Shown piece by piece: positions 2,872 through 57,216 of a stretch of 64,000 nt of DNA. Numbering within the stretch: position 1 is the first letter of the stretch; every line of letters starts with the position of its first letter. The DNA comes from Rhizoclosmatium globosum (taxonomy: Eukaryota > Chytridiomycota > Chytridiomycetes > Chytridiales > Chytriomycetaceae). The stretch spans positions 1 to 64,000 of the forward strand of contig MCGO01000108.1 of the NCBI GenBank assembly GCA_002104985.1, written 5' to 3'. Under the pieces are notes generated by a model that was not told the DNA's origin, made no database searches, and was given only the letters and a program-made list of their open reading frames with translations. The translations under genes were made by a program, and so were the position numbers.

Positions 2872-5764
2872 TCATCGCAAGCTACGGCGAAACCTGTCAA
2901 TCATATTCTCCCGTTCCTCTCTACTTGATTTGACAACAAGCTCCGCAAACTCAGTTGTACTCATATTCTTCTGCTGCGCCATTGCCGCCAGCAGAATACC
3001 GCGAACTTCTTCTGTTATGTCACCATCATTTCCAGCATCATCGTCAGGAGCGAATCCGTATACAGGTTCCTGTGTCAACTCTCCTGCTTCAACGGCACGT
3101 AAAGCGTCTTTTGTTATGAGTTTCTCTGCCTTGGATGAACCTAGAATATCTGTATTGACGTGCGTGTATGAAATGCTGTGACCACTGAGAATCGCAGATA
3201 CAGCATCTCGTTCCTGCTTTGCCATATCGCTTTCTGGTCCTCTATCAAATCTGGAAAACGTAAAATGGTTATTAAAAGTCCATACAGATAAGACTCCAAA
3301 CCTTTGAATGCGTTCTTGATTGAATTAGCTTCCTCCTCTTCCTCGCCAAGAGCACTTATTTTTTGCCTTTTCCGCGCTCCTGTATCTTCGTCTTCCTCCA
3401 TTTCGTCAATGTTTTGCTCTTCAGTAACAACCGGTACCATATCAACAATCTCAACACCACCTGTCGCCACAATCTCACCACCCTGTACCAGAAATTTGCT
3501 TTCCGCCTTTTCAAGCTTATCAATAATCAGTTTTGTAATCACTTCGCTGTCTGAATACACAGTCAACAAGTTCTCCAGCCCAAACAACTCGCCCTTTTTT
3601 TCTTGTCTCCCTGGATTCCAGAGAATAGCCGCCGCTCTTCTGAGGCTTCTAGCCTATTTGCGCTTGCTGTTGTTTATAAACTTGACGACCGTAAATCACT
3701 TCTTCCAAAGAGCCGGCGGCAATCAGCCTGTATACCTCACGTCACGCGTTTGTCCCTTTCATGTTGTCTTAATCATTAAAAAAATATGCGTTTTTAAGGA
3801 TACTCACAATGCGAAAGGCACGATCCTGGGCCTGCAAGTCATGACTGGGATTCCAATTTGGATCAAAGATCACCACAACATTCGCGCTCGTCAAGTTCAG
3901 ACCCACACCTCCAGCTCTCGTACTAATCAAAAACACAAACTGCCGTGGATCGTTGTTGAATTTATCAACGATTTCAAGCCGATCTGCGATAGGTGTTTTG
4001 CCATCCAATCGAGAATAATAGTATGATTTGTCCGACATTAAGATTTCAAGCATGTTCAAGAGCTTTACGGAGGCACTGAAGAGAAGGACTTTGGAGTTGA
4101 GTTTCTTCCAAACTTCGAGGAGTTTTTCGAGGACTCTCCATTTCCCGCAGAACTCTGGATTTCTCATGTTTATCCAAGTCATTTTTAATGATTCAGGAGA
4201 TGGCCGTTGGGGAAAGCGGACTGGACGAGGGTTTTATCTTTTTCCTGCTTTTCTGCGGGATCAGCTTGATCTGTCCTAATATAAGTACATGAGGGTGAAA
4301 TCGAGGCCAACATACCCGGCATAATGAGAGCAATATGATTAGACACTTTTTGAAGGGTAACCAAAGCCGACAGGACGGTGTGCTTTTATACAGATGTTAG
4401 GATTGAAAGTCTAAACAAACTCAACATCACTCACACCAATGGGAACATTTTCAGAATTCCTAGAATAACAGCACTTCCCCCGTGTCAAACTAGCATCCAT
4501 AATCGCGTTCCTACAATCACATCGCTCGTCCTTCCGAATCAACAGCTGAAAATCATCGCTCTTCAACAAACTCGCATACGCTTTTGTCTGTGTTTCACTC
4601 ATGGGACAAAACACGATTTTATCTTCCTTCTTGGCATTTGATGAGCAATCAGACTCTTTGTCCTTCGCAACATGTACTTCTGAAGAACCAGTTCACGGAA
4701 TTTCGTAGCAACTCGACGTGCTTCAGCGATTTCTCGTTTTGTTGCATCAAAGCTTGTCCACGTTCAAAGGAACTGCAATGCTCTGTTCAAACGAAGATTC
4801 CTTGCCAACAGACCACGGTTGCAGAAGTCAAGAATGCACCAGAGGTCTTTATACTTGTTCTGAATCGCTGTTCCAGTAAGACCAAAATGGGACTTGACAT
4901 TTTTGAATGATTTCATGGCTTTCGTTGTTTGCGATGAAGTTCTAAGGAATATCGTTCAGGTTTGGATTACACTTTGGTGAAATACCTTTAATTGATGGAC
5001 CTCATCGACAATAATACACGACCAAGGAACTGTATCCAATTCATGTTGATAATTTCTGGCAGTTCCAAAGCTTGTGATGGTGACTTCGAGTAATCCCACA
5101 ACAGCTTTCGCTAGAGTCTCTTCCTCATCGTTCCATGAAATATAGCCTGTCGAAAAGTATCCCCACGTGTCCAATTCTCGCTCCCAGTTGTATATCACTG
5201 ATGTTGGGCAAACAATCAATGCACGAAATATTTCAGATGGTTCCATTTGCTGTAACCGACCATTACGATGCATGAGTTTCCGAGTATTCTTCTCGTCAGG
5301 AATTCCAGTCTTGTGCATGACGGCTGAGAGAAACGCAATGACTTGAATGGTCTTTCCAAGACCCATCTATCCCAAACCGAATCAGAGAGAGTTGCGTTCG
5401 ATTTGAGGTCTCACATCATCACAAAGAAGGCCACCTCTTCCGTTCGCGTAGTGGTTGAACAGAAACGCCGCCCCTTCACGTTGATAGGATCTGAGGTATC
5501 GGTTGATTGCTGGACAGACTTCAGCTGTTGGTTTCCGAGCCTGCCCAAGATCAGAGGCTCTCCAAGCGGTATGTCCAAGTGGCTGAAGTTCTAACGACGT
5601 GGGTTAGACATCGTCGTCTTGTTTAGGAAAGCACTCAACTGGTTTAATGTCTTGATCTGGAACTGTAGTTCGAGGTATGTCCCTGGGTTTCAGTACTCCG
5701 GTTGGCAAACTTCATCTTCGTCCTCTGTGTCGCTCGCGACGAGAATGCTTGGTTTGGTGGACAT
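2872..5764 (-). CDS. ERCC6L2: SNF2-family DNA translocase, ERCC6L2-like
   Basis: ERCC6L2 is a nuclear SNF2 ATPase acting in DNA double-strand break repair. Reading down the minus strand: start ATG 5764-5762; a Q-motif region ending [12 protein letters not shown] (about 5513-5478); a GT-AG intron (about 5415-5367); Walker A MGLGKT (about 5366-5349); motif II as DEVH (about 5010, usually DEAH); LTGTAIQN (about 4873-4850); a Cys-rich CDCRN..CC insert (about 4520-4470) typical of ERCC6L2; motif [12 protein letters not shown] and motif [11 protein letters not shown] (about 3920-3800); and a C-terminal block ending at TAA 2872-2874. The paired DELDTWGY-like segment and the Cys-rich insert favour ERCC6L2 over CSB/Rad26. 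Frame changes without splice sites occur around 4820, 4760, 4745 and 4637. An in-frame TAA near 5608 may lie inside a 69-nt intron. Confidence 0.85.
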
Positions 5765-44321: not shown

Positions 44322-45239
44322 ATGGCGTCGCTCCCACCCGTCCTCCACCTCGATATTCTCAAGGAAATCCTATCGTTCCTTCACCCGCGCCAAAGTATCC
44401 GCCTCCGCCGCCTCTGTCGCGACATCAACTCTCTGATCCTCTCAAAACACTTTGCAAAGCAGAACCTCTCCCGATTCGTATCGCGAAGATCTCCTCCCGA
44501 TTCCAAAGGCTTCAACACGCTCGAGTTTGATTGGTTTCACTGGCCGGAATCGTTTGCCGTGGTTTATGTGGAACGGTGGAAGAGCCATCAAAGTCACTTG
44601 TGGTGGGGTGAAAACGCTGTGCGAACTGGAAAGATCCCGCGGGCTCTGCAGTTGATGACGGGATTGGTTTATTTGAACTTGGGGATGGGCAGGTTGAAGG
44701 ACGAGATACCCTTGGAGCTGACTACCATCGTATCTCTTGTTTCGCTTGATCTTGGGTATAACAGACTCGAAGGGTCTATCCCGCCATCTATCGGAAATCT
44801 CCAGAATCTCCGACTCCTCAAATTGAATGGGAATCTGCTCACTGGAAGTATTCCCATGGAAATCTGCAAACTCGGAAATCTGGTTGAGTTGATGCTGAGC
44901 CGAAACAAGCTTGCGGGACAAATACCTGCGGAGATTGGGAATCTGGTCAATCTAAAGGAGCTCTTACTTCGTGAAAATAGCCTCTCGGGCCCTATTCCTT
45001 CGTCGATTGGACAGTGTACTCGCTTGACAGATTTGTATTTGCAAAACAACAAGCTTGAGGGCCCTATTCCATCTGAGCTTGGACAATGTTTCAGATTGGA
45101 GAATGTGTATGCTCACAATAATCAGTTGAGTGGACCTTTACCGCAGTCACTAGTCAGTTTGCCTCGCTTGGCAATGTTTGACGTCCGAAATAACGCAGGA
45201 TTACACTGCGATTTCGAGTTTCCGAGGCTTGTCTCATAG
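44322..45239 (+). CDS. F-box-like / plant-type LRR protein E
   Basis: This is an intact single-exon gene of 305 codons. MASLPPVLHLDILKEILSFLHP begins the F-box-like head, then FAKQNLSRF, the linker motif FDWFHWPESFAVVYVERW, and eight GxIP repeats (for example RLEGSIPPSIGNLQNLRLL and SLSGPIPSSIGQCTRLTDL). The C-terminal cap is DVRNNAGLHCDFEF before TAG 45237-45239. There is no N-terminal coiled coil, unlike C and D, and no signal peptide or membrane helix, so this is an intracellular protein. It is the best template for the family because it is undamaged. Confidence 0.85.
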   Translation: MASLPPVLHLDILKEILSFLHPRQSIRLRRLCRDINSLILSKHFAKQNLSRFVSRRSPPDSKGFNTLEFDWFHWPESFAVVYVERWKSHQSHLWWGENAVRTGKIPRALQLMTGLVYLNLGMGRLKDEIPLELTTIVSLVSLDLGYNRLEGSIPPSIGNLQNLRLLKLNGNLLTGSIPMEICKLGNLVELMLSRNKLAGQIPAEIGNLVNLKELLLRENSLSGPIPSSIGQCTRLTDLYLQNNKLEGPIPSELGQCFRLENVYAHNNQLSGPLPQSLVSLPRLAMFDVRNNAGLHCDFEFPRLVS

Positions 45240-51589: not shown

Positions 51590-52945
51590 TTAAAATGATG
51601 GAGATGTTGGAGTGTAGTTTGGTGATGTCGGAATGTATGTTGGTGAAGATGGTGTCCAAGATGGAGAAACTGGACAATACGAAGGAGAGGTTGGTGTGTA
51701 GTTTGTCGTCACAGGTTGGTATGAAGGCGATGTTGGAACCCAACTTGGTGACGTTGGGGAATACGCGAATGTTGGCGAAGTGGGCGTCCACCCGAGATTT
51801 GGCGAAGCAGGGCAATACGCAGGAGATGTTGGTGAATACTTCAAATTTGATGTGTATGAAAGGCTTGTGGGTACGTAGCTGGGAGATTTTGGAGAGAAAG
51901 AGGCCTGCGTAGGTTTATATGCAGCCTTTAAAGCCCCATTCTTAGTGAGGTAGTTTGATTGTGGAAGGATGGTCGAACGCCTACCGCTTTTAGACGCTGG
52001 AAGCTTTGGCTCGATTGGAATAACACACACGTTCTGCTTCTTCTTTGGGGCTTCAGAAACATCTGCTGAGTTGTCATGATTCTTCCTCTTCAGTGGAGAA
52101 TACGAGGGATTCAAAAGTTGAAAGTAAGCTGGGCGGTTGCACATTTCTAACACCAAGGCTTTCATTCCCCCTCTTTTCACAACCTCCCTCAATCTACAAG
52201 CTTCCTTTTCTTTCAAATGCTCCAGCATAAATTTTACACATGCAGTGTGTCCGCGATCTTTCGCATCTTGTAACACATCGCCAATGTCTTGAGTGGTAGA
52301 AACGAAGCGCCCATCTGTGATCAGAATGCGAACAGATTCCGTCTGTCCACAAAGTAGCGCCCAATCCATGACGTTTTCGTTGTATGTTGGATTGAGGCTT
52401 TTACTTTTCAGCAGAAATTCAAGACAGTTGGTGTTACCAGTGCTTGCTGCCACCGCCAAGGGCAGGTTATTATTAAATGACGGATTAATGTGATTTGTGT
52501 CCAGCAGAAGGCGGATCACGTTCAGATAGCCGTGACATGAAGCCCAAAGAAGTGCTGCTTCCAAGTGCAACTTTCTGTGCGTGTCAGCCAATAAACTTTG
52601 TACGAGCTTCTTTGATTTGATTCTCCACTTTCTGGTTTCCCATACAGAGAACGTCTGAAAGTCTTTTGGGCAACTGGAGAAGAAGACGGGAGCTGTGATT
52701 AATTGGTATGTAAATGGCAAAGCCATCCATTCCTGGATCCCATACATCTCTAAATCTTTATTTGTTATCCTGTTGTTCAGATGGGTTTGGGCGGACAAGG
52801 CGTCGGGTAGGACAATGTCGGCCAGTTTCTTGCAGAGGCGGCCCACCACTGTCAGATGACTGTTTACAGGCAAGAAGGAAACTATGCGGGCAACAACGGG
52901 AGGGGGGAGGGAGTCGAAGCTCATTTTGTGGAAGGAACTTCTCAT
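51590..52945 (-). CDS. F-box-like / ankyrin protein with RNA polymerase II CTD-like heptad tail
   Basis: One intact exon encodes about 451 residues from ATG 52945 (a second ATG at 52924 opens MSFDSLPPP). Residues about 10-50 form an F-box-like motif ([25 protein letters not shown]). Residues about 120-250 contain four to five ankyrin-type units (for example [20 protein letters not shown] and [18 protein letters not shown]). A basic stretch with two KRK/KKK clusters (about 290-315) could be a nuclear signal. Residues about 343-451 (51593-51919) are about 15 tandem heptads of the form aromatic-x-P-T-S-P-S: one exact YSPTSPS, plus YTPTSPS twice, [21 protein letters not shown] and YIPTSPN. This is the Pol II largest-subunit CTD consensus, but no polymerase sequence is present. 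A role in binding CTD readers or kinases, or in Pol II turnover, is inference. Confidence 0.88.
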
Positions 52946-53360
52946 CACATTCTTCCCCTTTTAAATAAGTTCTTAATAAAACTTAACCACAACTTCCCCA
53001 ATGATTTATTATAACATTCAATTTTTCGACGGCAGATTATAACAGTAAGAGTGTGGGTCGCAAAGTGGACTCAGACTGTTTACTGCACAAAGTGCCTGCG
53101 AAAAGAGGGAATTCTGCTCCGAAGAGAGAAAAGGGTTGCCAAAAATTGGATACACTCTCCTTGTGGCCCTACCACACGGCAATCTTTAGTAAAAGGCGAA
53201 AGATTGAAGCGCTGTTGCGATAAAGCCAGAGAGGATGGGGATATAAGGAGGGACAAGGGATTTCCTTTTATTGATTGCTGGGTGACTGCGCATCAAGTCG
53301 TCAGAGCCAATCAAATCACTCCACAAATTTCAAAGGGTTACTCGACTGCGCACCCAAAAT
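52946..53360. other. Shared upstream region of the CTD-tail gene and U2 snRNA
   Basis: No gene is seen in this stretch. It separates the minus-strand F-box/ankyrin gene from the plus-strand U2 gene, so it must hold both promoters. Confidence 0.5.
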
Positions 53361-56121: not shown

Positions 56122-57216
56122 ATGACCACGCTCCTTGTCACCAAGTACGTCACCGATTCCGACGACATTGAGCATCCAACGCAATTGCAAGTGACACTGG
56201 ATCTGGCGCTGCTCAAGAAAGTGTTCAGTTTCGTGCATCCAAAGCAAGTTCACCGTCTTCGTCTCCTCAACAAGACATTTGCGTCCCTGGTTTTATCCGA
56301 CGACTTTGCCCTTCTCTGCCTCTCAAACTCGGTTCCAAAGACGCAGCCCGGCGATTGGTCCGACCTGTTTGCCATCACAAACAAACGCTCGTCCCTCTCA
56401 TTTCAGAGACCCAACGAGTTTCAGGAACTCTTTTTCCAATGGCCTGACTTGTATCAGCGGCTGTATGCTCAGCAGTTTGCTCAACACACAAAGTCGCTCG
56501 GCAAAGTGATTGGTTTGGGACGAGGCCGTTCTCTCACAATTCCACACCACATCCAGGAAATGACATCTCTTGTTCGTCTTGATTTAGGAATGTGTGGACT
56601 CTCTGGTACGATCCCATATGCCATCACAGGGCTTACTGCTCTTGAGTACTTGGACCTGTCACGAAATAGACTTGAGGGAGGCATCCCTGTCGGCCTTGGA
56701 AACTTGACGCAACTAAAATTGCTCAATTTGGAAGACAATGAACTGACTGGAGATATTCCTGCGGATCTGGGCTCTTGTGTTCAACTTGTTGGCCTCCAAC
56801 TGAATGACAACAAACTCTCGGGGCCGATTCCTTCAACCTTGGGATACCTTACAAAAATTGTGAAGCTATACTTGAGCAAGAATAATCTGTCCGGACCTAT
56901 TCCATCGGAATTCGGTCAATTGATTTCTTTGTCGGAGTTGAGACTCAACAACAACAGTCTTACTGGATCCATTCCATCAGAAATTTGTCGTCTTCAACAA
57001 CTCCGAAGCTTATATTTAAACAGGAACAAATTGTCGGGTCCAATCCCTCTTGAAATTGGAGGTTTGGTGCAATTACGCCATTTTGTTGTGAATGGGAACG
57101 AGTTGAGTGGTCCAATTCCTCAGTCCATCATGTCACTCGAAGAATTGGAGCTGTGTAATTTGAAAGGCAACGCTGGATTCACTTGCGACTTTGATTTTGA
57201 TTTCTCTATTCAATGA
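56122..57216 (+). CDS. F-box-like / plant-type LRR protein F
   Basis: This is an intact single exon of 364 codons. The F-box-like head is LDLALLKKVFSFVHPKQVHRLRLL (split here for length), followed by FASLVLSDDFALLCLS, the linker motif LFFQWPDLYQRLYAQQF and about ten GxIP repeats (such as RLEGGIPVGLGNLTQLKLL and NLSGPIPSEFGQLISLSEL). The cap is NLKGNAGFTCDFDF before TGA 57214-57216. There is no signal peptide or membrane helix. The gene is divergent from VPS5, 157 bases away. Confidence 0.85.
   Translation: MTTLLVTKYVTDSDDIEHPTQLQVTLDLALLKKVFSFVHPKQVHRLRLLNKTFASLVLSDDFALLCLSNSVPKTQPGDWSDLFAITNKRSSLSFQRPNEFQELFFQWPDLYQRLYAQQFAQHTKSLGKVIGLGRGRSLTIPHHIQEMTSLVRLDLGMCGLSGTIPYAITGLTALEYLDLSRNRLEGGIPVGLGNLTQLKLLNLEDNELTGDIPADLGSCVQLVGLQLNDNKLSGPIPSTLGYLTKIVKLYLSKNNLSGPIPSEFGQLISLSELRLNNNSLTGSIPSEICRLQQLRSLYLNRNKLSGPIPLEIGGLVQLRHFVVNGNELSGPIPQSIMSLEELELCNLKGNAGFTCDFDFDFSIQ

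Follow-up and report, generated by a model that had tools for sequence, protein, structure and literature searches.

A Pol II CTD-like heptad array on an F-box-like/ankyrin protein of the chytrid Rhizoclosmatium globosum

The window considered here, by which we mean the whole stretch of DNA analysed (64,000 nucleotides of Rhizoclosmatium globosum contig MCGO01000108.1, positions 1 to 64,000), carries on its minus strand an uninterrupted frame at 51590..52924. Running from an ATG at 52924 to a stop codon at 51590-51592, it comprises 444 codons and the stop, or 451 codons from an alternative in-frame ATG upstream (52945, minus strand); there are no internal stops, and the claim of an intact frame made in an earlier note on this DNA is upheld. 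The encoded protein opens with a weak F-box-like segment (residues 3-43; 52796..52918), followed by ankyrin repeats (about residues 125-241; 52202..52552), a basic linker in which KRK and KKK, 12 residues apart, weakly resemble a bipartite nuclear localisation signal (residues 279-296, 52037..52090) and a C-terminal tail of 15 aromatic-led units resembling the C-terminal domain (CTD) of RPB1 (residues 335-444; 51593..51922), all on the minus strand. The earlier note had proposed that CTD-like heptads are joined here to an F-box-like head and ankyrin repeats and not to a polymerase, and this we can confirm: the order of parts is the same in both alleles, a Pfam scan finds no polymerase catalytic domain in the window protein, and RPB1 is another gene. 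NCBIfam has no match for the window protein.

A search of the genome assembly (56.9 Mb in 420 contigs) recovered two alleles, that of the window, on contig C11, and one at G000:C257:337964-339292. The second has the same neighbours and is 96% identical overall to the first; between-allele indels in the head preserve the frame, and the tails are 100% identical in amino acids, differing at two synonymous sites only, a number too small to be tested alone. RPB1 has a gene of its own, whose CTD was located on C257 (about 111.8-112.6 kb) and on C407; the C257 copy lies some 225 kb from the allele. A misassembly or chimera with RPB1, which the earlier note had named as a possible source of the fusion, is very unlikely because a second haplotype has the same gene, with the same order of parts and an identical tail, and a separate RPB1 with its CTD; we reject it. 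The CTD of the second RPB1 copy, on C407 (L011, about 3009-3595), is itself split over two frames, which is perhaps an assembly fault in the repeat. The alleles differ most in the F-box segment, where pS is 0.24 and pN 0.09 against a pS of 0.00-0.03 elsewhere. The F-box-coding segment thus shows about ten times the synonymous divergence of the rest of the gene and is still in frame (window 52750-53000), perhaps through gene conversion or balancing selection.

The ankyrin repeats are identified by Pfam (Ank_2, E 1.1e-18) and by phmmer against PDB sequences, in which the middle of the window protein aligns to ankyrins. An AlphaFold2 model, built from a thin alignment of 5 rows and with a mean pLDDT of 50, is moderately confident in this region (ten-residue blocks within residues 121-240 score pLDDT 59-86), renders the head as helical and low-confidence (under 50 across residues 1-86) and models the tail as disordered (33-41 by block). 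Among the matches listed by Foldseek for this weak model, most are ankyrin repeat proteins and none reaches E 0.001. The F-box is less secure: residues 3-43 match the F-box-like model PF12937 at E 0.003 with 17.7 bits against a cut-off of 24.3, and score 15.4 bits against a cut-off of 20.5 with PF00646, so the curated score is reached in neither. An N-terminal F-box-like segment followed by protein-binding repeats is nevertheless present, its F-box part weak, and judged by sequence the window protein is likely to be an F-box protein, though under the curated threshold.

Among chytrid F-box/ankyrin and F-box/LRR families, the head belongs to the former, which in the genome stretches examined numbers 23 frames, alleles included (phmmer with residues 1-262), 14 sequences being aligned. 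The F-box is weak across this family, PF12937 being found in 4 of 14 members and PF00646 in 4 of 14 at E 0.5; one paralogue (L062:1031-2152) also falls under both cut-offs, with 20.0 and 19.5 bits, and the N-terminal pattern is common to the aligned paralogues. The linker and CTD-like tail are missing from all 16 F-box/ankyrin paralogues examined, and when the whole genome was searched, with PF05001 and with the tail as queries, no other F-box/ankyrin gene was listed as having an array. A full-length search of a global protein set gave 89 matches and no orthologue, and a profile of 14 heads gave 12 matches and no orthologue, only candidates sharing most words being scored in both; a search with residues 1-330 found nothing at E 0.001 among 5207 candidates. 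The only match bearing a Rhizoclosmatium name, P0090 (sp. JEL0117), is the counterpart (94% identical) of another F-box/ankyrin paralogue. We have dropped any strong claim of nuclear localisation because the bipartite pattern arises in 7% of linker shuffles (346 of 5000) and, when residues 1-334 are shuffled, in 12% (608 of 5000), and occurs in 2 of 16 paralogues too.

The tail consists of 14 full heptads and one unit of six residues, with an inserted FA pair and a final F. The earlier count of about 15 heptads including one exact YSPTSPS is accurate for units and for the single consensus copy, but only 14 units are full heptads. Eleven of these match [YWF]xPx[ST]Px and so form a tandem series of strict heptads with an aromatic residue at position 1, Pro3, Ser5 (or Thr) and Pro6; 20,000 composition shuffles gave on average 0.33 strict matches and never more than 4, and we reject chance low complexity as the source of the tail. 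Stretches within residues 335-444 align to RPB1 CTDs in phmmer searches of PDB sequences, the best whole-sequence E of 4.1e-54 being summed over several repeat stretches. The best PF05001 match to the tail reaches 18.8 bits, under the 20.3 cut-off, and PF05001 is absent from the Pfam scan of the window protein at E up to 1. Position 1 is aromatic throughout, being Tyr in 11 of the 15 units, Trp in three and Phe in one, a distribution that does not bear out the alternation of Tyr with Trp/Phe reported earlier. Of the residues said to be kept, Pro3 is invariant in the 14 full heptads; Ser5 is present in 12 and Pro6 in 11.

Deviations from YSPTSPS at positions 1-7 of the 14 heptads number 4, 11, 0, 5, 2, 3 and 6, an unequal spread (chi-square p 0.011). 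When the heptads of the organism's own RPB1 were mutated at random to the same total of changes in 2000 simulated runs of drift, five or fewer changes at Pro3, Ser5 and Pro6 combined were seen in none, and position 1 stayed free of non-aromatic residues in 27; both the chi-square and the simulation assume independence among units, although two-heptad blocks (units 6-7 and 12-13) look duplicated by eye, and neither counts the six-residue unit, in which Pro3, Ser5 and Pro6 are missing. Ser2 remains in 3 of the 11 strict heptads, whereas all 29 of those in the organism's own RPB1 have it; in the window tail, position 2 of the strict heptads still gives Thr-Pro in four cases and Ser-Pro in three. 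The aromatic residue, Pro3, Ser5 and Pro6 are therefore retained non-randomly and most Ser2 is lost. Residues 335-444 contain neither Asp nor Glu. Synonymous diversity among the units was considered as a clock and rejected, since the units of the organism's own RPB1 are similarly diverse; great age of the tail is therefore not proved.

The tail shares with the RPB1 CTD (PF05001) its tandem aromatic-x-P-T-S-P-x heptads, its predicted disorder and its C-terminal position, but it is carried by an F-box/ankyrin protein, has 11 strict heptads instead of 29, admits Trp at position 1 and has lost most of its Ser2. CTD-like sequence in non-polymerase proteins has precedents: in the portions of the sources available, the Nrd1 CID is described as binding CTD mimics in Trf4, Sen1 and Mpp6, which use acidic residues near the Ser5P site (PMC4186968, PMC7110113). 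As described there, these are short motifs with an acidic stretch, serving in Trf4 as a Ser5 phosphomimic, whereas the window tail is a long array with no acidic residue. The Nrd1-interaction motif is marked by an acidic stretch that precedes a Tyr-bearing hydrophobic part, and such a stretch is likewise missing from the window tail. Elongin A and Ela1 are F-box-like receptors that act on Pol II; to our knowledge these ligases target RPB1 without mimicking its tail. Searches of a literature set with few subscription papers and no preprints found no described protein combining an F-box/ankyrin head with CTD heptads, which agrees with the earlier note's remark that it knew of none.

PF05001 and tail searches of the genome located CTD-like arrays in RPB1 (two contigs), in the window gene (two alleles), at C16/C366 and at C90. 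The tail search also picked up a degenerate stretch, at C24 with E 0.19, and two more places with E about 1. The C90 frame (G000:C90:266402-268657; L046:2903-5158) encodes 752 residues with an F-box over the cut-off (PF00646, 24.0 bits against 20.5), leucine-rich repeats and seven strict heptads, and its product aligns to the window protein through the repeats only. Its relatives in the genome, judged from the best 60 of 666 candidates, match its F-box/LRR part, the best-scoring being 36% identical, and the whole-genome PF05001 and tail searches list no array at their places. The C16 frame (L012:835-3960, also on C366 at about 734.8-735.4 kb) encodes 1041 residues with an internal array of seven strict heptads; the array is the only domain recognised in it, and NCBIfam gives no match. 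Ser2 is found in 5 of 7 strict heptads in each of C90 and C16; Ser2 loss is therefore a mark of the window protein and not of the C90 protein. Because none of 16 paralogues of the window gene is tailed, yet the F-box/LRR gene at C90 has an array, the pairing of F-box and CTD-like array has apparently arisen twice in this genome. F-box proteins make up two of the three non-RPB1 array families with good matches, an enrichment that is suggestive and post hoc, since F-box genes are numerous here (at least 150 matches over the cut-off, from the best 150 of 486 candidates). The C90 gene adjoins an F-box/LRR neighbour without an array (L046:5158-6612), and a single C90 copy was found in the assembly. 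Frames matching the F-box/LRR family of C90 also flank the window gene (44376-45221 and 56428-57036, both plus strand), which makes the window rich in genes of F-box type.

In the global protein set, P0082 is a RING protein with a CTD-like array whose PF05001 score is under the cut-off, and P0078 has an array over the PF05001 cut-off together with an LRR match to an F-box-associated model that is under its own. Many of the 89 full-length matches are RPB1 or likely RPB1 fragments, and arrays also occur on unrelated, non-ligase-like heads (P0006, P0032, P0049, P0055, P0062, P0073), so that ligase-like heads are a minority among them.

Our preferred reading, to which we attach a probability of little better than one in three, is that the window gene encodes a lineage-specific SCF-type receptor with a selective, Ser5-phosphorylatable mimic of the CTD that would draw in CTD-binding factors or bring the ligase to sites of transcription. 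The F-box-like N-terminus would hold Skp1 and the ankyrin repeats would bind a partner, while the disordered tail would serve as the selective mimic of the Pol II CTD. A CDK7-type kinase would phosphorylate its Ser5-Pro6 sites in the nucleus, and the phosphorylated tail might then bind readers of Ser5P, such as CID proteins, capping enzyme and a Pin1-type isomerase; either the ligase would be placed at early transcription complexes, or CTD-binding factors would be presented for ubiquitylation. Skp1 binding, nuclear location, phosphorylation, reader binding and the direction of action are what we infer from these parts. The idea of a CTD mimic, already put forward in the earlier note, fits the anatomy and has precedents, but the mimicry would be selective: most Ser5-Pro6 sites survive and most Ser2 do not, a pattern that speaks against a full substitute for the CTD. 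The known mimics are acidic; with neither Asp nor Glu, the window tail would have to be phosphorylated at Ser5-Pro6 to be bound, and we accordingly propose an SCF-type receptor whose tail docks in a Ser5P-dependent way. In favour are the match to RPB1 CTDs, the chi-square and drift tests, the absence of any amino-acid difference in the tail between alleles, the C90 array, P0082, P0078 and the precedent of the mimics bound by the Nrd1 CID. Against it are an F-box that lies under the Pfam cut-off and is the most diverged segment between alleles, the low pLDDT of residues 1-86, the recurrence of the NLS-like cluster in shuffles, the want of acidic residues, the outcome of the protein searches described above, which yielded no orthologue, the tailless state of the 16 paralogues examined, the lack of an array in any other F-box/ankyrin gene listed by the whole-genome searches, and the assumptions noted above for the chi-square and drift tests.

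Of the alternatives, the one that survives best, though we think it unlikely, is that the tail is a generic aromatic and proline-rich sticker, which enters condensates (perhaps with the Pol II CTD) or binds WW/SH3-type domains and leaves the CTD phosphorylation code unread. Predicted disorder would suit such a role, as would position 1 remaining aromatic in 15 of 15 units despite changes from Tyr to Trp/Phe while positions 2, 4 and 7 vary; but a sticker would presumably need aromatics and not Ser5-Pro6 in register, and the latter is retained beyond simulated drift.

We regard it as quite improbable that the tail is instead a decoy or pseudo-substrate for a Ser2 kinase of the P-TEFb/CDK12 type, restraining elongation, with the F-box/ankyrin part adding turnover of the kinase. 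PIE-1 blocks Ser2 phosphorylation through an alanine-bearing heptad, and unlike that motif the window tail retains Ser5; moreover, the Thr-Pro (4/11) and Ser-Pro (3/11) at position 2 are still possible kinase sites. PIE-1, Pem-1 and Pgc are germline inhibitors unrelated to the window protein, and we know of no F-box/ankyrin part or long heptad array in any of them. What commends a decoy is the scarcity of Ser2 relative to the organism's own RPB1, and the fact that these three, non-polymerase proteins themselves, block Ser2 phosphorylation of the CTD according to the part of the source available, so that decoy logic is possible (PMC11094015).

Improbable too, and ranked below the decoy, is the idea that the tail is a captured piece of the RPB1 CTD which, attached to a redundant F-box/ankyrin gene, has no function and drifts. 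The positional pattern of changes is unlike simulated drift, and frame and tail are intact in both haplotypes; on the other side, RPB1 is on the same contig as the C257 allele, no close orthologue emerged from the full-length search of candidates sharing most words, and the RPB1-like synonymous diversity of the units leaves great age unproved. Least probable is that the F-box has decayed and the protein is an ankyrin scaffold for transcription factors or kinases with a CTD-like tail and no SCF role, for which the sub-threshold F-box and the sparse family matches speak, and against which stand the weak match of residues 3-43 to both F-box models, the N-terminal pattern common to paralogues and a pN below pS in that segment.

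An SCF-type receptor with a selective CTD mimic would be of interest because the CTD mimics found in print outside polymerase are, in the parts of those sources available, short motifs, and here a probable ubiquitin-ligase receptor bears a long array. Such an array, with a second, apparently independent case, would link protein degradation directly to the transcription cycle. By keeping Ser5-Pro6 when most Ser2 is gone, the array pulls apart, in a natural protein, the two principal marks of the CTD code, and this separation predicts which kinases and readers need which residues, predictions that are testable. A broader and more speculative extension, which we consider doubtful, is a class of E3 receptors with CTD-like tails, represented here by F-box/ankyrin and F-box/LRR proteins and elsewhere by RING and LRR counterparts, in which independently acquired Ser5-Pro6 arrays couple ubiquitylation to the Pol II phosphorylation cycle. 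If it is real, this class would be a ubiquitin arm answering the CTD code.

The loss of Ser2 does not extend to a rule that arrays outside RPB1 lose it, which is unsupported by a count over all 89 matches. In the 34 proteins without RPB1 domains, among them likely fragments of RPB1 and two other subunits of polymerases, Ser2 is present in 260 of 388 heptads (per-protein median 0.82; seven have none), and in the 55 with such domains it is present in 891 of 987 (median 0.91; P0075, 0/17). P0081, with RPB3-like and RPB11-like polymerase parts, and P0077, with an RPB2-like C-terminal domain, both have CTD-like arrays without Ser2, which suggests polymerases that carry the array on another subunit. 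Our guess is that they are perhaps from giant viruses; viral contigs, scanned twice, yielded no confirmed relative. PHROGs gave one weak match for seven proteins, that of P0006 to a tail-fibre family over its repeats. Finally, P0032, from Chytriomyces sp. MP71, bears its CTD-like array on an unrelated head, and its repeat part alone matches the genome studied here.
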